This document shows positions 4,245 through 35,180 of a stretch of DNA of 36,707 nucleotides, in pieces. The number at the start of each line of letters is the position of its first letter. The first letter of the stretch is position 1. Source of the stretch: a virus; IMG/VR virus record IMGVR_UViG_3300045051_000005, positions 1 through 36,707 of that record. The stretch is one strand, 5' to 3'. Under the pieces are notes generated by a model. That model was not told the origin of the DNA. It saw only the letters and a list, made by a program, of their open reading frames with translations, and did not search any database. Made by a program: the position numbers and the translations under genes.

Positions 4245-6429
4245 TCATCTCTCCTTGCTCGGGCATTCCACCCATCTGTTCCATTGATTCCATCTGCGAA
4301 GTCTCACGCATTTGAGGTGCACCGGCAACCAGATCGCCGGTATCGACAGCGGCTGCAATGGTGCCCATCACGATGTCCTGAATCTGCTCGGGGGTCATGC
4401 TGGCCTGCACGGCGCTGATGCGCTGTGTTTCGGCCTGATACGCCTTGACCTCGGCTTCAAACTCCTTGATGTTGAGATCGCGGGCTTCCATGCTCTGATT
4501 GACGTTTTGCAACATCTGGAACATGTTTTGCATCTCGGCTTGCATGGCTTCCATCTGCTGGTTGGCAGCAACCAGAGCCGGGTTGTCCTCGTCGGCCAAC
4601 ACTTTCGGGTCCAAAGTCTTCTGGAACCGCTTGGCGAGGTCTTGGGCACCGGGCCAGTCCATGTTCTTGACGAACAGGTCACCCGCCACGCTCCAAAGCT
4701 GCGGGTTGCCCTGCAACAGTTGGGCCATCGACTCCAGAGCCTCCTGACGCTTGGTGGCGTAGCCGGGGCCAGTGATGACACGCACGTCGTACTTGCCGAC
4801 AGACGGGTTGTAGATTTTGTCGATGACCACGCCTTCTTGGTTCACGATCTTTTTGACCGGTTCCTCTTGCATCGGGTTCATCTTGACGGTCGATGGTTCG
4901 CCGTCTTCACCAATGATGCGGGCAATGCGCTCAGTGTCGTAAATCTTGGGGATCAAATCCACCAGTTGACGACCAACATGGCGAATAGCGCGGGCCAGAT
5001 TATCCACATAGTGATAGGTTCCTACGTCCCCCTCGCGCTGACGCGCAAGGATTGCTTTACCAGACCGCTCGTTGCTGGACATGCCCAGCGATGCGTTGTA
5101 CTGACCGGTGGCGGACTTGATGTCTTCGGATGCGCCTGCTTTGGCCTGCAACAGCCCGCTGGAGGCCATCGGAGGTTGTGCCCGCTGGGGCAGAGGCAGA
5201 ACAGCACCTTGACCGTCCGTAACGTCAGGGTTGACCTCCAGATACGGCCAGTTCTGGGTGTTGGCAGTCTTCCACTGTTGCTCGTACCCTTCAAACTGCC
5301 CGCCGTATCCGATGAACGGTGCTTTGGGTGCCAGCGCCAGCATTTCGGCTTCCTGCGACACCCAGTAGTTGTACATGCGCTGTGCGTCTTTGGCGTTGCG
5401 CACCAAGCCGCTGACATACACCCGGCCGTCCACCTCAAACTCGTTGCCGACCACGCGCACCACGGGGATGAACGAGCCAGCCCAGTCGCGTTCTTCAAGA
5501 ATCTCGTAGCCGTTGATCTTGCACCACTTGACCTTCTTGCGGTCAGAGGGGCGAGAGCGCAGGGGCTTGCCGAACATCATGCGCAGCGACTTGTCCTCGG
5601 GACTGCCGTCAAAAGCGGTCACGTTGCCGGGGTACAGGTTCAGCGTTGCTTTTTCGTACTCGATGTAGAAATACTCAGCAATGCGAACTGTGTTCTCGCT
5701 GATCCACTGGCTGATTGACTGATCGCCAACGCCCAACGACATCAAGGTGTTAATCGGGGCGGCGTTGGGGTACAGGCGCTCATACTCAGCCTTGGTCATG
5801 TCTTCCGTGATGAAGCACCAGCGGGCGTCAGAGCCAGTCGGGTCTTGAATCAAGGGGTCCATGTAGACCGAGAAGCTGTTGCGAACGCGCCCGATCTTAA
5901 TGTCCTGATCGAAGGTGTCTTCGTCGCAATACTCGGTCAGCAGGCGGATGTAGCCTTCGCCGTAGGAAACTTGGTTCTCGCAAGCGGTGTCATAGGCCAC
6001 GTCGGCATCCGAGATGTACTCGATGTGACGGATCACGCCGTTGTAGACATCGGCCACCTCGACATCACCCTTGTCGTCAGCCGGGATCACCTTAATACCC
6101 GGGCGGTTCATGCGCTGCTCGTTGGTGATCTGCTTAACGTGCTGGGGTAGCTTGTTGATGGTCAGGCAGGGGCGGGCGTTGATGGTTTGACCCTGCACCG
6201 CGCCACGGGTCTGGAGAACGTCAGCGGGCCACTGCCACTGGTTGTCCGGGGAGCCTGCGTAGAAGCGCAGGTCGTCAAGTTCACTCTCGCGTGTCTCGGA
6301 AAACGCCGAGATCGCCATTGTCATGCGTGAACGGGCGACGGTCAGGATGTCCTCGGAACCGCCTTTTGACGGGTACGGGCCGTTCTTTGCCACATTCGCT
6401 GCGGCCACGATTCCGGTTGTGTCTTTCAT
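4231..6429 (-). CDS. Portal protein, P22 gp1-like
   Basis: This 732-residue protein is close to the 725 residues of P22 portal. It would form the dodecameric DNA channel at one capsid vertex, bind the terminase and later the gp4-like protein. Supporting stretches include the early segment with DDLRFYAGSPDNQW, then LTINKLPQHVKQITNEQRMN, IPADDKGDVEVADVYNG and SYGEGYIRLLTEY. A long coiled-coil with Glu/Gln-rich sequence and a Met/Gln-rich tail (from about residue 620) fits the helical barrel of P22-type portals. The start ATG overlaps the stop of the GroES-like gene (ATGA). Confidence 0.94.
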   Translation of the reverse strand: MKDTTGIVAAANVAKNGPYPSKGGSEDILTVARSRMTMAISAFSETRESELDDLRFYAGSPDNQWQWPADVLQTRGAVQGQTINARPCLTINKLPQHVKQITNEQRMNRPGIKVIPADDKGDVEVADVYNGVIRHIEYISDADVAYDTACENQVSYGEGYIRLLTEYCDEDTFDQDIKIGRVRNSFSVYMDPLIQDPTGSDARWCFITEDMTKAEYERLYPNAAPINTLMSLGVGDQSISQWISENTVRIAEYFYIEYEKATLNLYPGNVTAFDGSPEDKSLRMMFGKPLRSRPSDRKKVKWCKINGYEILEERDWAGSFIPVVRVVGNEFEVDGRVYVSGLVRNAKDAQRMYNYWVSQEAEMLALAPKAPFIGYGGQFEGYEQQWKTANTQNWPYLEVNPDVTDGQGAVLPLPQRAQPPMASSGLLQAKAGASEDIKSATGQYNASLGMSSNERSGKAILARQREGDVGTYHYVDNLARAIRHVGRQLVDLIPKIYDTERIARIIGEDGEPSTVKMNPMQEEPVKKIVNQEGVVIDKIYNPSVGKYDVRVITGPGYATKRQEALESMAQLLQGNPQLWSVAGDLFVKNMDWPGAQDLAKRFQKTLDPKVLADEDNPALVAANQQMEAMQAEMQNMFQMLQNVNQSMEARDLNIKEFEAEVKAYQAETQRISAVQASMTPEQIQDIVMGTIAAAVDTGDLVAGAPQMRETSQMESMEQMGGMPEQGEMNEMR

Positions 6430-9131: not shown

Positions 9132-9193
9132 CAGAGTCTTTCAGCCACGTAGTCCACAAGCAGTATGACAACTGCACCAATAATCACAGCCAT
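9128..9193 (-). CDS. Membrane micropeptide (21 aa)
   Basis: A 21-residue ORF coding MAVIIGAVVILLVDYVAERL followed by Trp. Residues 2-13 are an uninterrupted hydrophobic helix, so this would be a single-pass inner-membrane peptide. Its ATG overlaps the small terminase stop as TGATG, and its TGA overlaps the next GTG as GTGA. These overlaps fit the start-stop chain of this operon and suggest real translation. It is shorter than normal gene-calling limits. A pure spacer role in translational coupling is the alternative. Confidence 0.55.
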   Translation of the reverse strand: MAVIIGAVVILLVDYVAERLW

Positions 9194-9756
9194 CACTCGT
9201 TCTCCAATCTCGGGGTCACATCGACCACCTCGGCCTCAATCACCCGGGCCTGAGCCTGCGCCAAGGCTTCTGTGATCGAGATCGTCCCGCCCACCTCGAT
9301 CTGCTTGGTTTCCCCGTACCGCTTGCGGTTGTGGGCACCCATGAGCCACTTGCGCGTGTCGATGCGCAGCTTGTCGCGGTTGACCGTCTCAGGGGCCGAT
9401 GCGTCGATGGAGTCCACCCCATCGGCAATCTCGAGAATCTCCCCGGCCAAGAACTCGGTGCGCATCTCCTGCGCTTCTTTGAACCGCTCGTGGCGCTGGG
9501 GGTCACGCTTGACCCAGCGCAGGAAGTCCTCATACGACACGAGTCGATGGTCGTCTTCGATGAGGGATTGCAGGGAGCGGCCCCGGTAAACGTCCTCGAT
9601 CACCCGCTCGAAGATTTGCTCATATTCGACATGGCGAAGGGCTTTGGACTCCGCAGGGAGCCTCGGGGGTTTGGGGTCTGGGCACGACAGCCAGTTTGGG
9701 AGTGGGGTTTCACCGGTGACAACCGTGCCTAGGGAATGAGGGTTTCCTTGTTCCAT
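9193..9756 (-). CDS. Small terminase subunit
   Basis: A 187-residue protein in the small-terminase position directly upstream of the large-subunit group. A proline-rich N-terminus leads to a helical DNA-binding part with IFERVIEDVYRGRSLQSLI and DDHRLVSYEDFLRWVKRD, which reads as a helix-turn-helix recognition unit, then a helical oligomerisation part (EMRTEFLAGEILEIADG) and RIDTRKWLMGAHNRKRYGE, a typical ending of this family. I chose the ATG at 9756. A longer frame reaches a GTG at 9843 but would run through the promoter. No ribosome site precedes this ATG. Confidence 0.85.
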   Translation of the reverse strand: MEQGNPHSLGTVVTGETPLPNWLSCPDPKPPRLPAESKALRHVEYEQIFERVIEDVYRGRSLQSLIEDDHRLVSYEDFLRWVKRDPQRHERFKEAQEMRTEFLAGEILEIADGVDSIDASAPETVNRDKLRIDTRKWLMGAHNRKRYGETKQIEVGGTISITEALAQAQARVIEAEVVDVTPRLENE

Positions 9757-9766
9757 AGTGGGTGTG

Positions 9767-9795
9767 AGTGTAGCAGGTGGATAACTGAGATGCAA
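9767..9795 (-). promoter_or_regulatory. Sigma-70-type promoter for the late/terminase operon
   Basis: On the minus strand TTGCAT and TACACT are separated by 17 bases, and TGC directly before TACACT makes an extended -10 element. The -35 box is weak (3 of 6). The predicted transcript would begin only about 3-4 bases before the small-terminase ATG, implying a nearly leaderless mRNA. The palindrome AACCCACTGGGTT lies just upstream, centred near -54. Confidence 0.62.
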
Positions 9796-9807: not shown

Positions 9808-9820
9808 AACCCACTGGGTT
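9808..9820. promoter_or_regulatory. Palindrome site 1 (AACCCACTGGGTT)
   Basis: A 13-base palindrome with 6-base arms. It lies upstream of the -35 box of the terminase promoter, a position more usual for an activator or a looping repressor than for simple blocking. Confidence 0.65.
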
Positions 9821-9967
9821 TTTGATTTTGAAAAAATTTTCACGGGTTCTGTGGTGCCTACGTAGCTGGACCATCGACCCCGCTGGCCCTACCCCCTCCC
9901 CTCGCGCCAGCGACCCCCGGGCACCACGGCAACCGGCACCCGGGCGCGGCACCCCCGGCACCCGCGC

Positions 9968-9978
9968 ACCCGCTGGGT
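9968..9978. promoter_or_regulatory. Palindrome site 2 (ACCCGCTGGGT)
   Basis: An ACCC-NNN-GGGT match in the middle of the divergent intergenic region. Confidence 0.6.
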
Positions 9979-10000
9979 TTGGGAATCGTGCGGATTCTCT

Positions 10001-10013
10001 GACCCGATGGGTC
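10001..10013. promoter_or_regulatory. Palindrome site 3 (GACCCGATGGGTC)
   Basis: Perfect 5-base arms GACCC/GGGTC around GAT, centred 34 bases from site 2. Confidence 0.62.
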
Positions 10014-10060
10014 AAGGTTCGCGGGGCCTTTTGGGTTTTGCGGGTGAATGAAACCCGCGC

Positions 10061-10072
10061 ACCCACTGGGTT
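10061..10072. promoter_or_regulatory. Palindrome site 4 (ACCCACTGGGTT)
   Basis: It has the same 11-base core as site 1, ACCCACTGGGT, in the central part of the region. Confidence 0.62.
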
Positions 10073-10090
10073 AGGGGTTCAATCGAGAAG

Positions 10091-10121
10091 CCGGGGAAAA
10101 CCGGGGAATTCCCGGGGAAAA
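10091..10121. repeat. CCGGGGAA repeat cluster
   Basis: Three copies of CCGGGGAA begin at 10091, 10101 and 10112, about one helical turn apart. The middle copy runs into GAATTCCCGG, forming a palindrome. Iteron-like spacing suggests protein binding on one DNA face; the role is unknown. Confidence 0.5.
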
Positions 10122-10125
10122 GTGC

Positions 10126-10136
10126 ACCCAGCGGGT
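10126..10136. promoter_or_regulatory. Palindrome site 5 (ACCCAGCGGGT)
   Basis: An ACCC-NNN-GGGT match immediately after the CCGGGGAA repeat cluster. Confidence 0.58.
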
Positions 10137-10305
10137 TAGAATTCCCGGTTTTGCGGGGGCTGGGGACAAAAAATCCTTTTCGCGCGCGCCCGACCCCTTG
10201 TTTTATACGATTTTGAAAAGGCACTTATTTTCTGGAATTCCCAAAATGCACCCCTAGAACCAAAAGGGCCAGTTGTCACCGGCGAACCAGTGAACCCGTA
10301 AACCC

Positions 10306-10318
10306 GACCCAGTGGGTC
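10306..10318. promoter_or_regulatory. Palindrome site 6 (GACCCAGTGGGTC)
   Basis: A perfect 13-base palindrome with 6-base arms, centred 61 bases upstream of site 7, which fits two bound dimers on the same or nearly the same DNA face. Confidence 0.66.
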
Positions 10319-10356
10319 AGGGAAAACACCTACAATCTTTTTTTTCGTGCTAGGGG

Positions 10357-10384
10357 TTGACACCTTGACCCAGTGGGTTACAAT
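10357..10384 (+). promoter_or_regulatory. Early promoter, TTGACA-N16-TACAAT
   Basis: The -35 hexamer is consensus and the -10 differs at one base. The spacer is 16 bases and contains palindrome site 7. The transcript would start near 10391 and lead into the 48-residue gene and the following plus-strand block. It is the strongest promoter match I find in the window. Confidence 0.75.
10368..10378. promoter_or_regulatory. Palindrome site 7, inside the early promoter spacer (ACCCAGTGGGT)
   Basis: The palindrome fills the last 11 bases of the 16-base spacer between TTGACA and TACAAT. A protein bound here would directly exclude RNA polymerase, so this is a classic repressor-operator position. Confidence 0.7.
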
Positions 10385-10427
10385 GAACCCGTGACACCGT
10401 AAACCGTAACCCCTCGAAAGGATGAAC

Positions 10428-10574
10428 ATGGACCGCCATAAGCTGACCTACGTTGATTTGCACCCCGCCCCCGTGGATACCGAAAAGGCCCCGCCATTGT
10501 GGGCGCAAGTGCTGGGGGCGATTGTCACCCTCGCCGCATTGTATGTTTCCCTTGTTTTTCTTTTTTCTCTGTAA
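10428..10574 (+). CDS. Small membrane protein (48 aa), first early gene
   Basis: A 48-residue protein: a polar N-terminus (MDRHKLTYVDLHP), then a hydrophobic helix from about residue 26 to 47 ending VFLFSL. It has a GAAAGGA ribosome site 5 bases before the ATG. As the first gene after the early promoter it could act on the host envelope, for example in superinfection exclusion, but that is inference from position and topology. I recognise no family. Confidence 0.62.
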   Translation: MDRHKLTYVDLHPAPVDTEKAPPLWAQVLGAIVTLAALYVSLVFLFSL

Positions 10575-10605
10575 CCCGTAACCGTAACCCTCGAAAGGAT
10601 CAACC

Positions 10606-10914
10606 ATGAACACTGCAACCGATACCCGCACCATCCTCGCCGCCGCCGTGGACCGCCTCGCCTTGATCAAGGCACGCATGGCGGAATTGAGCGCCGAGGA
10701 AAAGGCCCTTAAAGAAACCTTGACCGCCTCGGGCCTCGAGGCCATCGAGGGCACCGCGCACCGCGCCGCCATTTCCCAGTGCGCCGGGCGCGTTTCGATT
10801 GACTGGGAAACCATCGCCGCAAAATTCAACCCCTCGCGCCAGTTGATCGCCGCGCATACGTCAACCGGTGCACCCTATGCCGTGGTGCGCGTTTCCGCAC
10901 GTAAGGGGGCCTGA
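10606..10914 (+). CDS. Hypothetical early protein with coiled coil (102 aa)
   Basis: A 102-residue protein. Residues 14-45 are Ala/Leu/Glu/Lys-rich and should form a coiled coil (LALIKARMAELSAEEKAL); the rest contains IDWETIAAKFNPSRQLIAAH, a block I have seen in other phage hypothetical proteins. Its function is unknown. A GAAAGGATCAACC leader precedes the ATG, nearly the same as that of the gene before and two genes after. Confidence 0.75.
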   Translation: MNTATDTRTILAAAVDRLALIKARMAELSAEEKALKETLTASGLEAIEGTAHRAAISQCAGRVSIDWETIAAKFNPSRQLIAAHTSTGAPYAVVRVSARKGA

Positions 10915-10916
10915 TC

Positions 10917-11183
10917 ATGTTTCAGATTTTCGATTGTCTGAATAACCCAGTGGGCCGCGAAGCGGGCTATTTGAAGCATTCAACCGCTCAAGGCCTTGTA
11001 GAGCGCCCCGGGCGCATACGCCGCGCGATTTATGACACTTTCGCCCGGGTGCGCGGTGAAAACCCGCTACAGTGTCACGTGTACTCGATCCGCTGGGTTG
11101 ACCCCGTGGCCGTGACGATTATCAACCGCACCGGTATCCCCTCGGATCGCTTGATCGTCGCTCACGTAGGGGGTGCGGCATGA
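10917..11183 (+). CDS. Hypothetical early protein (88 aa)
   Basis: An 88-residue, arginine-rich protein without a recognised domain, two bases after the previous stop and overlapping the next gene as ATGA. A segment near the start (NNPVGREAGYL) is encoded over an imperfect copy of the ACCCAGTGGGT palindrome (10945-10955); this may be coincidence. Confidence 0.68.
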   Translation: MFQIFDCLNNPVGREAGYLKHSTAQGLVERPGRIRRAIYDTFARVRGENPLQCHVYSIRWVDPVAVTIINRTGIPSDRLIVAHVGGAA

Positions 11184-11854
11184 AATTTCACTTTATTCCC
11201 CAGTCGAGCAACCGCAAAACCGGGGCGATCCCGGTAACGTACACCGAGCGGGCATCGTGCCCGCCATCGTGCCCGCATTACCGGGCCGATTGTTACGCCG
11301 AGGATTTTTATACCCGCATGGCATGGGACAAAGTGCCCGAGCGGGGCGGCACCCTCGAGGCCCTTTGCTCATCGATCGCCGCATTACCCGAGGGTCAATT
11401 GTGGCGCATGAACGTGGCCGGGGATTTACCCGGCGAGGGTGAAACCGTGGACCCCGTCGCACTGGGTGAAATTGTGCGGGCAAATATCGGGCGGCGCGGG
11501 TTCACGTACACCCACAAGAAAAGCCCCGAGGCCATCGAATGGGCGACCCATGCTACGCGCTGGGGGTTCACCGTCAATCTGAGCGCCGATGATGCCGGGG
11601 ATGCCGATGCCCTCGCACCCTTTGGCCCCGTTTGCGCCATCGTGCCCACTGACACCCCCGAGAAAAGTTATACCCCCGAGGGGCGCACAATCATCGTGTG
11701 CCCCGCGCAAACCCGCGATGATGTCACGTGCGAAACATGCGGCCTTTGTGCCCGCGCTGATCGCGCCGTGATCATCGGATTCCGTGCCCACGGCACCCGC
11801 GCACGGGTTGCCGATGCCAAAGCCCGCCGGGTGATTCCTATTTTGAAAGGATGA
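11180..11854 (+). CDS. Cysteine-cluster protein (DUF7227/GP88-like), possible metal or Fe-S enzyme
   Basis: A 224-residue protein with two cysteine clusters: C27, C31 and C38 (ASCPPSCPHYRADCYAED) and C174, C184, C187 and C190 (VCPAQ...CETCGLC). Between them are alternating strands such as QLWRMNVAGDLPG, RRGFTYTHK and GFTVNLSADDAG that read like a barrel. The pattern matches a widespread family I know as DUF7227 or 'gene product 88', of unknown function; the CYAE block also resembles the phage Gp37/Gp68 radical-SAM-like proteins. An Fe-S or zinc site is likely; enzymatic activity is inference. ATGA overlap with the gene before. Confidence 0.75.
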   Translation: MKFHFIPQSSNRKTGAIPVTYTERASCPPSCPHYRADCYAEDFYTRMAWDKVPERGGTLEALCSSIAALPEGQLWRMNVAGDLPGEGETVDPVALGEIVRANIGRRGFTYTHKKSPEAIEWATHATRWGFTVNLSADDAGDADALAPFGPVCAIVPTDTPEKSYTPEGRTIIVCPAQTRDDVTCETCGLCARADRAVIIGFRAHGTRARVADAKARRVIPILKG

Positions 11855-11858
11855 ACAA

Positions 11859-12083
11859 ATGCCCCTCGATTTAATGACACTGCCCGCCCATGAGGCCGAG
11901 GCCCTCGCCTACGCCGAGGGATTTACCGGCACCGCTCGCCTATTTGCCCGGATCGCCGATTTACAAAAGGCCCTCGGTGAGGCCGTGGCCGAGATTGAAT
12001 CCTTGAAAAATATCCGTGATCAATTGGAAACCAACCTTTTTATCGCCCGCCATGATCGCGCATACGGGGGGCCGATGGATTGA
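11859..12083 (+). CDS. Hypothetical coiled-coil early protein (74 aa)
   Basis: A 74-residue helical protein; residues 25-60 form a probable coiled coil (IADLQKALGEAVAEIESL). It has the shared leader GAAAGGATGAACAA before the ATG. Its stop overlaps a TTG that could start a hydrophobic 24-residue ORF. Function is unknown. Confidence 0.68.
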   Translation: MPLDLMTLPAHEAEALAYAEGFTGTARLFARIADLQKALGEAVAEIESLKNIRDQLETNLFIARHDRAYGGPMD

Positions 12084-12219: not shown

Positions 12220-12591
12220 ATGAACCCCGCACCCCTTACTCCCGCCGCTCAATTTGCCGAGGCCCTCGGGGCCTTTGTTGCCCGCCGTGCCCTCGATGAA
12301 CCCGCCGCCGCCGGGTTGCTGGGGGTGCCCGTTTTTACTTTTCGCAAATGGGCCACGGGCACCCGTGCACCCAGTGCCGCCGCCGTGCGGTTGCTCGATG
12401 TTTTTTGCACCCTTGAGGCCCTCGCCCCCGCCATGCTCGATTCTTTTGTGCCGCCCGTGCAGCAGGCGACACCGCGCAAACGTGGGCGGCTGGGAAATTT
12501 GCCCCCGAAATCGCGTCATGTCGAAAAATCCCGTTCCACCGACTCAATCGGTTCAAGTGCCGATTCGGTCATGTCGAAAAATCCCGTTTGA
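12220..12591 (+). CDS. Helix-turn-helix transcription regulator (XRE/Cro-like)
   Basis: A 123-residue protein. Residues 25-70 read as an XRE-type helix-turn-helix: EPAAAGLLGVPVFTFRKWAT, then GTRAPSAAAVRLLDVF. Such proteins bind short palindromes as dimers, which makes this the best candidate to bind the ACCC-NNN-GGGT sites 1.8-2.4 kb upstream. The C-terminal 40 residues are basic and low in complexity, and the DNA there carries a 21-bp direct repeat. The GAAAGGATGAACCG leader matches the other genes of the block. Confidence 0.75.
   Translation: MNPAPLTPAAQFAEALGAFVARRALDEPAAAGLLGVPVFTFRKWATGTRAPSAAAVRLLDVFCTLEALAPAMLDSFVPPVQQATPRKRGRLGNLPPKSRHVEKSRSTDSIGSSADSVMSKNPV
12515..12535 (+). repeat. 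21-bp direct repeat, copy 1
   Basis: GTCATGTCGAAAAATCCCGT plus T, inside the 3' end of the helix-turn-helix gene. An identical copy starts 53 bases later. Because 53 is not a multiple of three the two copies are read in different frames, so protein-level selection does not explain the repeat. Confidence 0.85.
12568..12588 (+). repeat. 21-bp direct repeat, copy 2
   Basis: Identical to copy 1 and ending at the stop codon of the helix-turn-helix gene. The bases between the copies are unrelated to those after copy 2, so this is not a simple tandem duplication of 53 bp. A binding site or a slipped-strand event at the gene's end are both possible. Confidence 0.85.
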
Positions 12592-13201: not shown

Positions 13202-13228
13202 AAGGCCCGGGATTACCGGGCCTTCTTT
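13202..13228. terminator. Bidirectional rho-independent terminator
   Basis: A 9-bp stem AAGGCCCGG / CCGGGCCTT with a 5-base loop. On the plus strand it is followed by CTTTATT; on the minus strand by UUUUGC. It lies between converging genes and can serve both. Confidence 0.8.
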
Positions 13229-15731
13229 ATTCCTCATCCATCGCGTCAGGGTCATACCCTTTGACCAGCTTGCGCTCATATCCCTTCTCGATGGCGTAGC
13301 GGTAGATGTAGTCGGCGTGGCGCTGCTTGGCCTTGATGACCTTCTCCCGGTATCCCTTGAACATGGCAGGCAGACTCGGGTTGATGGCCCAGACCACGCG
13401 CTTTTTGTGCAACTCGTTCTCAAGCTGCACGACCCATCCAGCCTGCTCCAGCACCAACATGGCATCCATGATCGCCTGATCTTTCTGCCAGTCGGTCTTG
13501 CCGTCCAGTGGACGCCGTGCTGACTTCTTCAGGGTGCGCAGGTCAATCATCTGCGTGTCCCCGCTGATCTGGATCACATGGTCAATGACCCACTGATCGA
13601 AGTCGTTCGTGATCGCACCACCCACCTCACCCAGCGAGTACCGGTAGGCCGGGATGATGTACCCACGCACCAGACTCACGACCCTGTGGACAACATCGAC
13701 TGACACCTGCGGAGAGAACGGGGACTCGATGATGTGGAACATGAGGATCAAGCGCCCTGCAAGACCCTCCAGTTTGCCGAACGCCGTCATGTACTCTGTG
13801 CCACTGTCCAGCACCCGCTCGTCCTGCTTGGCCTGCTCGTACCATGATTGGAACTCGCGGAAGGCTGTGAATGCTTCTGTGGATAAGTGGTAGGTCTGGG
13901 GCGGCAGCGCGTAGGTCAGGCGCAGGGTGTTCTCCCATGCGGCCGCACTGGTCATGTACTCGGGGATGGGCTGACCCAGCTTGGTCTTGCTCCCGCGCAG
14001 CACTGCGGGTATAAACCGCTGCAACAGGCCATCCGCTGCGAGAGAGGCCAAGTTTTGCCTGAACACTTGGGGCTGGATGTTCCCATAGATCGAAACCGCC
14101 AAGTTCTCGCAGTAGATCGAGCCAGCGCCCACCCGGTCCATCTCGTAGTGTTCTGACTCGTAGCTGACAACCCATGCCGAGCGATCCTCGCCGCTGGTCT
14201 TGTCTGTCAGCTTGCGCACCCATGAGTTCATCTCGTCGAGGTGGCACAGCAGGCCACGTGGACGGTCAGCAGCTTGGCGCACCAGCTTCTGACTCGTGAT
14301 GTCGGACACCGTGATCTTGAGCGGCACGGGCTGCGGGGGCATCTCGGGCACATGGGGTGCCTGATCCGCGCCCAGCATGGCCTCGGGGCTGGCTGAGAAC
14401 TCAAGGAACGCCTTCTTGGCACTCGCGTAGGCCGCTTCCTTGCCCTCCCAGTCCAGCAGTTCCTTGCCGTAGCGAGGCCGATCCTCGGCCTCGATGTTCT
14501 TAAGCGGGGACAACATCGGACGCGATCCGGGAGACTTCTTGTCCGCTGGATCGCCCAGGGTCATGAGCCACAACACTGGCGGGACACGGAACCCCGGCAT
14601 GAGTTCGAGCCGGATGCGGGCGTCAACGACCCCACAGACAGCGGCCAACCCAGCGAACAAAGGGACCAAAGGGTCACAGCCCACGCTTTCGCTGATCTCA
14701 AGGGATCGCTGGCGCAGGATGCCGGGCCACAGGTCCATGTTCATCTCGGGCGGCTTGGGGCGCAGGCCGTCCACCACGTCCAGCGGGTCCATGACCGGCA
14801 TGTCGATCTTGCTGAACAACTCGGACGCATCGGGCAGGGGACGCTGCCACCCGTGCTGCTTGGCGATATGAAACAGTGTCCCCAACTTGACAGCGGTGGC
14901 CTTGTCAGGCCGGAAGCTGATCCACTGCGTCAGGATTTCCCGCTCACCGGGGTACTTGAACTGAGCCGTGCTGCTCCACTCGTTCCACAGTTGCAGCGCC
15001 TGCTCAAGCTGGTCGGTCTGGGTGCCTGCCCAGTGCAGCGCCATGCCGATGGACACCCACTCGTCGCGGGTGCAGTCAGCGGGCACCGCATCGAGGGCTT
15101 GCCTGATCTCCTCCCACGAGGCGTCAACCGCGCCGCCCGTGCTGATCGTGCGCTCCTTGTCCTGCGCCAGCATCCCGTTCCACAGGTCCAGCAGGGGCTG
15201 GGGGATCATGGGCAAACGGGTCCAGTGACCATTGCCTGCCCAGTGATAGGGCTGGCGTGTCTCGGGGTGGATGCTTGGTGGCAGCACGTCCTGCACCGTG
15301 AGGCCGCTGACCGTGGCGCAGCGCAACTCGTAGGCGGTGATGCCGCTGTGCATGATCTTTTTTGATGGCAGCGCAGCACCGAAGGGCATCGAGTACAGCA
15401 GCTTGCCGTGCCCGGGCTTGCCCGAGTTGATCACCACGGCGTCGGGTGCATCGTAGAGGGCTTGCAGGTCGATGCCGTGTTGGGCCAGCAGGCTGGTGGT
15501 GACAGTCCAGTTGTCGATGTCCAGAGCCATCGTGCCGCTGTACGCATGGGCCAAACCGATCCCGTAGCCCGCTGGCAGGTCGTTTTGACTCTTGAGTGCA
15601 TTCTCGCGCAGGTTCCAGCCGGGAGTGCGTGGACCCTTGGTTCCCGCAGGAATGGGGACAAGGCTCCAGCCATGCCGGATGTAGGCGTCAATGGACGCAG
15701 GATGTGGTTGCACTGTCTGTGGTGCTGTCAT
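13227..15731 (-). CDS. Primase-polymerase with PriCT and DUF3987 helicase-like regions
   Basis: An 834-residue protein. The N-terminus (about 10-185) is an archaeo-eukaryotic-type primase-polymerase domain: the metal-binding pair in ALDIDN (D71, D73), GKPGHGKLLY (105-114) with His108, and VLPPSIHPET. Residues about 205-295 match PriCT-2 (WEEIRQALDAVPAD... WVSIGMALH). The remainder (about 330-780) resembles DUF3987, found fused to such primases. It would lay primers and perhaps unwind DNA at the phage origin. It is the only minus-strand gene inside the early region. Its ATG overlaps the stop of a 14-codon leader ORF and has only a weak ribosome site of its own. Confidence 0.88.
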   Translation of the reverse strand: MTAPQTVQPHPASIDAYIRHGWSLVPIPAGTKGPRTPGWNLRENALKSQNDLPAGYGIGLAHAYSGTMALDIDNWTVTTSLLAQHGIDLQALYDAPDAVVINSGKPGHGKLLYSMPFGAALPSKKIMHSGITAYELRCATVSGLTVQDVLPPSIHPETRQPYHWAGNGHWTRLPMIPQPLLDLWNGMLAQDKERTISTGGAVDASWEEIRQALDAVPADCTRDEWVSIGMALHWAGTQTDQLEQALQLWNEWSSTAQFKYPGEREILTQWISFRPDKATAVKLGTLFHIAKQHGWQRPLPDASELFSKIDMPVMDPLDVVDGLRPKPPEMNMDLWPGILRQRSLEISESVGCDPLVPLFAGLAAVCGVVDARIRLELMPGFRVPPVLWLMTLGDPADKKSPGSRPMLSPLKNIEAEDRPRYGKELLDWEGKEAAYASAKKAFLEFSASPEAMLGADQAPHVPEMPPQPVPLKITVSDITSQKLVRQAADRPRGLLCHLDEMNSWVRKLTDKTSGEDRSAWVVSYESEHYEMDRVGAGSIYCENLAVSIYGNIQPQVFRQNLASLAADGLLQRFIPAVLRGSKTKLGQPIPEYMTSAAAWENTLRLTYALPPQTYHLSTEAFTAFREFQSWYEQAKQDERVLDSGTEYMTAFGKLEGLAGRLILMFHIIESPFSPQVSVDVVHRVVSLVRGYIIPAYRYSLGEVGGAITNDFDQWVIDHVIQISGDTQMIDLRTLKKSARRPLDGKTDWQKDQAIMDAMLVLEQAGWVVQLENELHKKRVVWAINPSLPAMFKGYREKVIKAKQRHADYIYRYAIEKGYERKLVKGYDPDAMDEE

Positions 15732-15772
15732 ATACTTTTCTCGCCAGTGATTGCAGTTGCTGGTTGTTTCAT
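15728..15772 (-). CDS. 14-residue leader ORF coupled to the primase gene
   Basis: An AAGGAG site, 6 bases before an ATG, drives a 14-codon frame (MKQPATAITGEKSI) whose TGA overlaps the primase ATG (ATGA). The good ribosome site belongs to the leader, not the primase, so primase translation is probably started by ribosomes ending here. The peptide itself may have no function. Regulation of primase level by this leader is inferred. Confidence 0.6.
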   Translation of the reverse strand: MKQPATAITGEKSI

Positions 15773-15793
15773 TGAAGTCTCCTTGAAGTTGGT

Positions 15794-15829
15794 ACCCCGG
15801 GGTTCACAAGACCCCGGGGTTTTTCTTTT
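15794..15829 (+). terminator. Hairpin: plus-strand terminator / primase 5' UTR stem
   Basis: ACCCCGGGG and CCCCGGGGT form a 9-bp stem with a 9-base loop, followed on the plus strand by TTTTCTTTT. It would stop plus-strand transcripts that read antisense through the primase gene. In the primase mRNA (minus) the same stem stands just before the leader ribosome site and could affect it. Confidence 0.72.
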
Positions 15830-15834
15830 CTGGA

Positions 15835-15866
15835 GTGTTGCACAATCGTATCACGCTGTGCTACAC
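15835..15866. promoter_or_regulatory. Inverted-repeat operator, GTGTTGCACA-N12-TGTGCTACAC
   Basis: The 10-base arms match in 9 positions and their centres are 22 bp apart, two helical turns. The repeat covers both promoters of this divergent region. The neighbouring ribbon-helix-helix protein is the natural candidate to bind it, because such proteins bind paired half-sites and often control their own promoter. Confidence 0.62.
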
Positions 15867-15867
15867 T
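15838..15867 (+). promoter_or_regulatory. Promoter for the ribbon-helix-helix/replication operon
   Basis: TTGCAC-N18-TACACT with TGC before the -10, the same extended -10 (TGCTACACT) as the terminase promoter. The -35 is weak. The first gene starts at 15899. It overlaps an opposing promoter and an inverted repeat. Confidence 0.62.
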
Positions 15868-15874
15868 ATGTCCA
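15845..15874 (-). promoter_or_regulatory. Possible primase promoter
   Basis: On the minus strand TGGACA (5 of 6) and TACGAT (4 of 6) are 18 bases apart. It occupies nearly the same bases as the opposing promoter, so the two would compete. It is the best minus-strand match upstream of the primase leader. Confidence 0.48.
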
Positions 15875-15898
15875 TCGACACGGAAAAATTTCATCGTC

Positions 15899-22971: not shown

Positions 22972-23210
22972 ACCGCAAAGACATTATTCGCATGGCGCGT
23001 TCCGATGAGTGGGCAGCCGATGTGTCTTTGAAGTGGGATGATTTCTTTGTGCGCTTTGCCACTCTTGTCGTTGCTGCTGAGCGTGAGGCGTGTGCGAAGG
23101 TGTGTGAGGACATCTACAACGACCCCAAGGGTAACAATGGGGACGACTACTACTACACGCGCCCTTATCTTGAGTGCGCCGCCGCCATCCGCGCAAGGAG
23201 TCAATTGTGA
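22968..23210 (+). CDS. Hypothetical early protein (80 aa)
   Basis: An 80-residue protein, MNRKDIIRMARSDEWAAD followed by LVVAAEREACAKVCED and ending CAAAIRARS. The AEREACAKVCE block is common in small proteins of many phages (usually of unknown function). It overlaps both neighbours by 4 bases (ATGA before, GTGA after). Confidence 0.75.
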   Translation: MNRKDIIRMARSDEWAADVSLKWDDFFVRFATLVVAAEREACAKVCEDIYNDPKGNNGDDYYYTRPYLECAAAIRARSQL

Positions 23211-33107: not shown

Positions 33108-35180
33108 TTAAACGATTGCCCACGACGAGCCAGACGGCACAGTGACCGTGACGCCAGACGCCACAGTAATTCGACCCGCAGACATCGCATTGTTGCCCGA
33201 CGTAATCGAATAATTGGCCGAGATCGTGGCGCTATTTTCCCACAGTCCTTGCGAGGTGATGTTACTGCCACCGCCCGCAGCCGCCGCCCACTTGACGCCA
33301 GTAGCAGCAGTCGAGTCGGCAGTCAGCACATACGTGTCAAGCCCGACGGCCAATCGAACATTGTTGGTGCCGTTGTCAACGATCAAGTCGCCTTTTGTGG
33401 TCGTCGGGGCCAGTGCATCAAACGCAGCGGTTTGAGTCGTCTGACCCGTGCCACCGTTGGCAATCGCCACGACACCGGTCACGTTGGCTGCGGTACCCGT
33501 GGTGTTCTGGTTGAGTGTTGGGATGTCCGCAGCCACGATGGCCCGGAACGTAGGCGCACCTGTTGATCCGTTGGGAGCAGCCAAGAACCAGTTCGCCGTC
33601 TTGCTGGCGTAAGGGTTCTGGGTGTCGCCGTACCCCGAAGCCAAGCTGATTGCAGGGGTCGTGCCGCCCGAGGAAACCACTGGCGACGTGCCCGTGACAC
33701 TCGTGACCGTGCCATTACCCGTACCCGCACCGATGGCCGTGCGGAACGCTGATGCTGTCAGCGCAGAGATCGTGTTGTCAGCATTGAACCGGGGGAACGT
33801 GACCGCGCTGGGGTTGGTCAGCGTGAACATGTTCTGGCCGACCGTGGTGCCACCCAACGAGGTGCGACCCGTCGATGCGACCAAGTTGGTCGCCCCACCG
33901 TCCCACTGCAACCGCTCCGAAAAGGCGGTGTTCCAGTTGGACTGACTGGCGTCTGTCGGGATCGAGTAGCCTGCCGTGTAGGACACTGCCAGCGTACCCG
34001 AGGTGGTGATGGGAGAGCCGCTGATTGACAATCCTGTGGGAACAGTCATAGCCACCGAAGTGACCGTACCACCTGACGAGGGGCTGGTGTTGGCAATCGT
34101 CAGTGTTCCGTCAGCAGCAGGTGTCACCGAGATGCCCGTGCCAGCGGTCAGCGCGGTATTTTTCCAATAAGCATCCGCGCCGTCGTAGGTCAGGATTTGA
34201 CCGTTGCTCGGCGAGGTGATCTGCGCGTTGGAGTCGGTGCCGCCCAATGTTGAACCGGGGTTGATGCGGAGCAAAATCGTACCGCCTCCAGCAGACCCAC
34301 CTTTGACAACCGCAGCCATCTGCACCTTGACGTTCGGCGCGGAGGGTTTGACGTTTGTCAGACCACCTGTGACTGCTGGGTTGTACCAGAGAATGTCGCC
34401 GTCGGCGTAGCCCGAGGTGTTGACGTTACGCAGTGTGCCAAACGTCTGCACCAAGCCAAAATCATTGTGAGCAATCGCCTCTGCGGCAATACCCATAATG
34501 TATGTTCCATCGGTGATGCCGGTGGCCGGGGCACCCGTGGGTACGCCGCTGGCACCCACAGCGCCCGTGAACATGACCACCTCGCCCTTGGCGATGGCGG
34601 CGCTCGCTTTGCAGTAAAAGAACTGATCTTCACCGATGTGCTGGGTGACGTTGCCGCCCGCCATGCCCAGCCCGAGTGTGTTGTTGCCATCCCAGCCCAG
34701 TTGGCCTGCGGTTAAAGGCGTAGCGTATGCGGTGTCGAACTGCACAAAATCAGGCGACGAGATGCCGCCAGTCACCCCTGACATACTGGTGATGTCGGAG
34801 TTCGCACCCTTGAGCGCAAACGGTGCACCTGCGGCCGTGGTCGATCCTGTGCCGCCATTGGCGACATTGAGCGTACCGCCCAAAACAATATCGCCGGTGG
34901 TTGTGATTGGGCCACCCGTGGTGGTCAGCCCAGTCGTACCGCCTGTCACGTTGACAGACGTAACCGTACCAGACCCGCCACCACCACCGCCTCCAGCGTC
35001 AGGCTGGGGAGGAGGGCCAATTTGCAGGTCGTCTAGGGACGTTTGGTTACCACCGTTGCCCGCAAGGTTGAACAGGTTTAGGAAAAACCGGTACCACTCG
35101 CGTGACACCATCCCCGTGCGCGGATCAATGATCTCGACACGATTGGACGGTATGTTGGTGATGTTTGGTTCGTTAGGCAT
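33108..35180 (-). CDS. Tail fibre with N-terminal anchor (690 aa)
   Basis: A 690-residue fibre. The N-terminal 45 residues (EIIDPRTGMVSREWYRFFLN) are a tail-anchor segment found in many podophage fibres; a poly-Gly hinge follows at about residue 62. The shaft has repeats of GTVTSV (three copies) and NGGTGSTT/NGGTGQTT. The C-terminal 45 residues resemble those of the 225-residue tail protein. It lies where P22 encodes its gp26 needle. I used the ATG at 35180, which overlaps the gp10-like stop by eight bases; a TTG five codons earlier is less likely. No clear ribosome site, so translation probably depends on coupling. Confidence 0.85.
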   Translation of the reverse strand: MPNEPNITNIPSNRVEIIDPRTGMVSREWYRFFLNLFNLAGNGGNQTSLDDLQIGPPPQPDAGGGGGGGSGTVTSVNVTGGTTGLTTTGGPITTTGDIVLGGTLNVANGGTGSTTAAGAPFALKGANSDITSMSGVTGGISSPDFVQFDTAYATPLTAGQLGWDGNNTLGLGMAGGNVTQHIGEDQFFYCKASAAIAKGEVVMFTGAVGASGVPTGAPATGITDGTYIMGIAAEAIAHNDFGLVQTFGTLRNVNTSGYADGDILWYNPAVTGGLTNVKPSAPNVKVQMAAVVKGGSAGGGTILLRINPGSTLGGTDSNAQITSPSNGQILTYDGADAYWKNTALTAGTGISVTPAADGTLTIANTSPSSGGTVTSVAMTVPTGLSISGSPITTSGTLAVSYTAGYSIPTDASQSNWNTAFSERLQWDGGATNLVASTGRTSLGGTTVGQNMFTLTNPSAVTFPRFNADNTISALTASAFRTAIGAGTGNGTVTSVTGTSPVVSSGGTTPAISLASGYGDTQNPYASKTANWFLAAPNGSTGAPTFRAIVAADIPTLNQNTTGTAANVTGVVAIANGGTGQTTQTAAFDALAPTTTKGDLIVDNGTNNVRLAVGLDTYVLTADSTAATGVKWAAAAGGGSNITSQGLWENSATISANYSITSGNNAMSAGRITVASGVTVTVPSGSSWAIV

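Follow-up and report, generated by a model that had tools for sequence, protein, structure and literature searches.

In phage phi29, a single early protein, p4, binds at four sites located between the A2c (early) and A3 (late) start points, and it activates one promoter and represses another (PMC11476376 and titles that it cites); p4 has an N-hook motif, according to one of the cited titles, and works with the histone-like protein p6. The Escherichia coli antitoxin MqsA, a protein of toxin-antitoxin autoregulation, binds ACCT-N3-AGGT through Asn97 and Arg101 (PMC4901048; also PMC4894380). The R-M controller proteins, such as C.Esp1396I, C.AhdI, and C.Csp231I, are small XRE-fold proteins that control R-M operons, and PMC3115060 describes how they form a switch that is cooperative, depends on concentration, and both activates and represses. 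Many copies of one operator per phage genome are also a feature of multi-operator phage repressor systems, among them the mycobacteriophage stoperators, which are asymmetric and distributed genome-wide (PMC9283540).

The sequence analyzed here, called the window throughout, is a 36.7-kb record of a freshwater virus of bacteria in which copies of the palindrome ACCC-N3-GGGT are gathered between two opposite-facing gene blocks. The array is probably the operator of an early/late transcription switch run by one protein, an assessment made for the whole model, whose parts are not independent. Functionally, it comes closest to the phi29 p4 system, with its one early protein and several sites between early and late starts, and the site positions in the window fit activation of one promoter and repression of another. 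However, the sites here are 11-bp palindromes, the candidate binder is XRE/MqsA-like, and a p6-like partner was not identified. At the molecular level, MqsA and the controller proteins are the closest parallels. The MqsA operator has the same half-site and spacer geometry but differs at the inner base of the half-site (ACCT in place of ACCC). Moreover, the HTH lies from residue 69 on in full-length MqsA and from residue 8 of 123 in the phage protein, which leaves the latter without room for the MqsA N-terminal domain, and its predicted role is a phage switch rather than toxin-antitoxin autoregulation. Controller proteins match the phage protein structurally (Z about 7), but with only 5–18 percent identity in the structural alignments, and they act on an R-M operon rather than on divergent phage blocks. 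As with stoperators, one operator recurs many times, but nearly all copies lie in one intergenic region.

The proposed operator array and its genomic setting

Among named relatives, the nearest to the window is Phage DSL-LC05, a metagenome assembly that has been proposed to represent a family 'Luchaoviridae' (PMC10611076); within the literature searched, of which coverage was incomplete, a single paper names this phage or family, and the words promoter and repressor do not occur in it. The late genes run leftward from terS, the first late gene, which encodes the small terminase subunit (9193–9756, minus strand; phrog_1482, E=6.7e-24; Pfam Sf6_terminase), and, judged against the circular map of DSL-LC05, continue round the circle. 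The early block starts at 10422 and runs to the right, and its small genes, taken from the ORF list, fill 10422–12083 on the plus strand between the early promoter (PR) and the HTH gene; DSL-LC05 has homologues of most of them, in unchanged order. Early and late blocks thus diverge from the array region.

Seven exact ACCC-N3-GGGT matches were counted within 9809–10378, beginning at exactly the seven positions given in the preliminary description. They comprise operator L1 (ACCCACTGGGT, 9809–9819), whose center is 42 bp upstream of the −10 box of the late promoter (PL); four predicted middle operators (9968–9978, 10002–10012, 10061–10071, and 10126–10136); operator R2 (10307–10317), with its center 67 bp upstream of the PR −10 box; and operator R1 (10368–10378), located 61 bp downstream of R2 within the PR spacer. 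All seven are predicted operators. Over the whole window, eight perfect matches were found, where 100 dinucleotide-preserving shuffles gave a mean of 0.87 and a maximum of 4, in agreement with the above-chance density that had been claimed. The eighth match (23122–23132) had been missed in the preliminary description, in which no further perfect copies had been noticed by eye. It is probably a chance match, being located within an ORF and having a spacer, CAA, unlike that of the consensus TGACCC(A/G)N(T/C)GGGTCA derived from 521 distinct sites in relatives.

Relatives, well over 100 in all, were retrieved through the early DUF7227 protein, TerL, the HTH alignment, and TerS. In most TerL relatives reaching the region, the interval from terS to the early genes contains 3–11 perfect sites, and in near-complete relative records the perfect sites are concentrated there; DSL-LC05 has six, all in one cluster. 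The motif is not dense outside the array region, either in the window or in its relatives, where a similar density would have counted against the switch. A broad scan of viral contigs for a promoter-with-site pattern returned mostly unrelated single matches. In DSL-LC05 (L005), an annotated hypothetical protein at 33492–33857 spans the operator array and probably corresponds to no real gene.

Elsewhere in the window, a primase-polymerase gene (Prim-Pol, PriCT_2, DUF3987; 13227–15731) is encoded on the minus strand, its plus-strand reading being interrupted by stops, and converges with the early small-gene block, so that the replication genes seemingly have their own divergent start region at 15732–15898. 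Within it, at 15790–15830, two copies of ACCCCGGGGTT 6 bases apart are followed by a T run; upstream of the replication genes, they thus resemble a terminator hairpin read in the plus direction.

The HTH protein and its link to the array

The preliminary description had pointed to the protein encoded at 12220–12591 (plus strand) as the one to test for binding. This small HTH protein of 123 aa, encoded in the early block behind PR, is the likely operator binder on the grounds of co-occurrence, homology with the MqsA/HigA antitoxin HTH, and its AlphaFold model. Its gene was present in all 46 array loci in which the relevant region was covered, and the array loci without an HTH match were mostly cut short. 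Conversely, relatives with a recognizable HTH gene nearly always have 3–11 sites between terS and the early genes, and 30 of the 33 newly fetched HTH loci carry the array. Two relatives, L128 and L113, lack both the array and the HTH gene (over the whole 37-kb record and on a 9.6-kb locus, respectively) while keeping terS, terL, and the primase. This covariation gives a Fisher p of 0.015, a value that comes from few independent losses among relatives that are not independent.

The AlphaFold model has helices at residues 8–23, 27–34, 38–46, 53–68, and 70–74, with a pLDDT of 96–98 in the HTH core, and shows the five-helix Cro/C1-type (XRE) fold with helix 3 as recognition helix. Its structural matches include HigA2, C.AhdI, and MqsA (Z 7–9), while a Foldseek search by itself yielded nothing below E 0.001. 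Pfam HTH_31 matches 21 of the 51 family members (the window copy only at E=0.0097), HTH_3 matches 14, and MqsA_antitoxin matches 15 (best E=0.0004). Among solved structures, the HTH profile matches MqsA best (E=0.0017), and the MqsA palindrome shares the geometry of the sites found here. In the HMMER alignment, with residues numbered by counting along the motif, Lys43 of the phage protein falls on MqsA Arg101. The proteins of L139 (RNW) and of L158 and L159 (RHW), which do not carry Lys43, accompany altered arrays; two other arrays, those of L055 and L043, have drifted despite Lys43, the L055 HTH being itself diverged. The idea that residue 43 determines the operator motif is therefore suggestive only, and comparing the center base of the sites with HTH residues gave no clear rule beyond clade.

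Many family members (e.g., those of L009, L026, and L035) end in an RGRP motif, which we take to resemble an AT-hook, and the operators adjoin an A/T tract. No MqsR-type partner toxin was identified next to the HTH gene when the neighboring ORFs were scanned with Pfam, and no activation surface was identified on this short protein. A scan of 84,980 bacterial species genomes with one peptide pattern found no HTH relatives. Taken together, we consider it very likely that the HTH protein binds the ACCC-N3-GGGT sites.

Promoters at the two edges of the array

Two promoters pointing in opposite directions had been proposed at the edges of the array, and both are present as sequence. On the right, PR (10357–10384, plus strand) consists of TTGACA (10357–10362), a 16-bp spacer, and TACAAT (10379–10384), and it scored 11 of 12 matches in the promoter scan, the best in the region. 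An A/T tract at 10331–10345 (plus strand), about −45 to −60 of PR, is kept in many relatives and may act as an UP element. R1 lies within the PR spacer in 47 distinct promoters of relatives, of which 45 have an exact TTGACA as −35, 44 have a spacer of 16 or 17, and 37 have the site center 6 bp from the −10; since these promoters were chosen by TTGAC just upstream of the site, the counts show frequency and uniformity rather than an unbiased motif. R2 is placed 58–61 bp upstream of R1 in most relatives and 48, 41, or 37 bp upstream in others. As a protein sitting in the PR spacer would block the polymerase, repression is the straightforward reading, and we regard repression of PR by the protein at R1 as likely, with good confidence.

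On the left, PL (9767–9795, minus strand) consists of TTGCAT (9795–9790), a 17-bp spacer, and an extended −10, TGC-TACACT, with its hexamer at 9772–9767. In every late promoter scored, 9–10 nt separate the −10 box from the terS ATG that follows, and about 69 percent of these promoters have the extended −10 TGnTAnnnT. Such a short stretch, in which no Shine-Dalgarno-like sequence was seen in the window (9756–9772) or in relatives, suggests that the terS message is probably leaderless or nearly so. The PL core is weaker than that of PR, with on average 4.0 of 6 matches at the −35 and 4.0 at the −10 versus 6.0 and 5.0, and several relatives have a good −35 (TTGACA) at PL.

The distance from the center of L1 to the PL −10 falls into classes about one helical turn apart. 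Among 74 distinct sequences, it is 32–34 bp in 17, 42–44 bp in 39, and 52–54 bp in 16, with single values of 75 and 86, no values between the classes, and R=0.92 at a period of 10.5; in far-class sequences, an imperfect site copy is visible nearer the promoter. All 42 held-out late-promoter sequences fell inside the predicted distance classes. We attach no p-value to this phasing because the sequences share ancestry, which makes the repeated changes of class the stronger argument: at least 29 such changes were counted on the TerS tree, and close relatives with identical TerS proteins, such as L108 and L051, differ by a whole turn. The A/T tract adjoining L1 (GTGAAAATTTTTTCAAAATCAAAA on the late strand; 9820–9843) is conserved, and in relatives it is phased with the site, the T-run being 10–15, 21–24, or 32 nt away. 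In a control, the same score was computed for other four-letter words in the sequence upstream of PL; the highest values belonged to fragments of the site or tract, and the 21 words had a median of 0.64, which makes this a weak control, as many of the words neighbor the site or tract. The sites are thus kept at fixed positions in relatives that keep the promoters, where their loss had been named as an outcome that would speak against the switch.

Direct contact between a bound protein and RNA polymerase predicts spacings of whole helical turns, and from the phasing we infer that the protein at L1 very probably contacts RNA polymerase at PL. Such a natural helical-phasing experiment, across more than 100 late-promoter sequences, is rare and points to protein-polymerase contact. 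That the contact activates the late genes is rather likely, although a phase-locked contact could also repress.

In the proposed switch, PR, the strong promoter, would fire first, and the early small-gene block would be made, including the HTH protein. As it accumulated, this protein would bind ACCC-N3-GGGT as a dimer. Bound at R1, it would cover the PR spacer and shut PR off, which would also amount to negative autoregulation; bound at L1, always on the same side of the helix upstream of PL, the weaker promoter, it would touch RNA polymerase and most likely activate terS and the late genes that follow. For the middle sites, a probable role would be to load more protein cooperatively or to set its threshold, although the spacing among neighboring sites is barely phased (R about 0.25) and does not explain what they do. 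The operator array of an early/late switch suggested in the preliminary description is thus supported at the level of sequence by the scarcity of the sites elsewhere, their fixed positions relative to the promoters, their co-occurrence with the HTH gene, and the like geometry of the palindrome recognized by MqsA. Such a switch would be compact and testable, its operator being defined and its binder likely, and it suggests how widespread uncultured freshwater podovirus-like phages could pass from early to late transcription with one small protein.

Alternative readings and arrays of unrelated repeats

In three relatives, the corresponding intergenic region contains repeats of unrelated sequence. 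L128 has ten copies of AAACATC in 700 bp (4700–5400), compared to three in the other 12.8 kb; its half-sites flank a TTGACA-16-TACAAT promoter of its own, and the ACCC-type HTH was not found there. L130 has eight TGAC-N6-GTCA in 350 bp and none elsewhere, and MW202483 (L285) has six GTTTAC[AG]TAAAC in 540 bp and none elsewhere; the arrays were noted at 493–700 in L130 and at 5639–6010 in L285. Near the L285 array are genes for a DnaA-like HTH protein and a cytosine methyltransferase.

The same protein might bind the array and act only as a repressor at both promoters, as a Cro- or CI-like protein of a temperate or pseudo-temperate phage would, with the late block turned on by other means. Repression through polymerase contact can also need helical phasing, p4 uses the same residues to repress one promoter and activate another, according to a title cited in PMC11476376, and some relatives have a good PL −35. 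However, PL cores are mostly weak and PR is near consensus, the pattern expected if PL needs help. The one-pattern scan of bacterial genomes also speaks weakly against this reading, as does the fact that neither an integrase nor another lysogeny gene was seen in the DSL-LC05 annotation or among the right-arm proteins scanned (part of the ORFs). We therefore judge it unlikely, without dismissing it.

Far less probable are two readings in which the array serves something other than transcription by way of the HTH protein. The palindromic tandem sites beside a conserved A/T tract recall the lambda origin, where tandem sites lie beside an A/T tract, and they could be iterons bound by an initiator, the tract being the melting region. 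The outer sites, however, are locked to promoter elements, and the linked protein is an HTH of 100–120 aa with no second folded domain in the model; a replication origin as the main function was rejected on these grounds, and we hold the iteron reading to be very improbable, although the middle sites may be in dual use for the switch and replication. The array also lies directly upstream of terS, as might be expected of a pac site bound by the small terminase; alternatively, a host factor rather than the HTH protein could bind it. Yet L128 and L113 keep TerS (70–74 percent) and TerL without such sites, which led us to reject a pac site as the main function, drifted motifs accompany divergent HTH proteins, and unrelated arrays occupy the same place in three relatives. 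Binding by the terminase or a host factor appears, if anything, slightly more improbable still.

Returning to the one-protein switch, a broader and tentative extension, which we find possible but doubtful, is that the divergent early/late region is a swappable cassette of regulator and operator array in a proposed phage family without sign of lysogeny, with the middle sites as a built-in timer or titration device. Under this extension, the array word would change as a set (ACCC-N3-GGGT; ACCCATTG half-sites with a diverged HTH; AAACATC...GATGTTT; TGAC-N6-GTCA; GTTTAC[AG]TAAAC), while the position of the array and, in closer relatives, the core of the late promoter would stay constant.

On the early side of the window, a repeated leader, made of CCGTAACC repeats followed by GAAAGGAT, precedes early ORFs at 10395–10425 and 10573–10608, and similar leaders occur in relatives.
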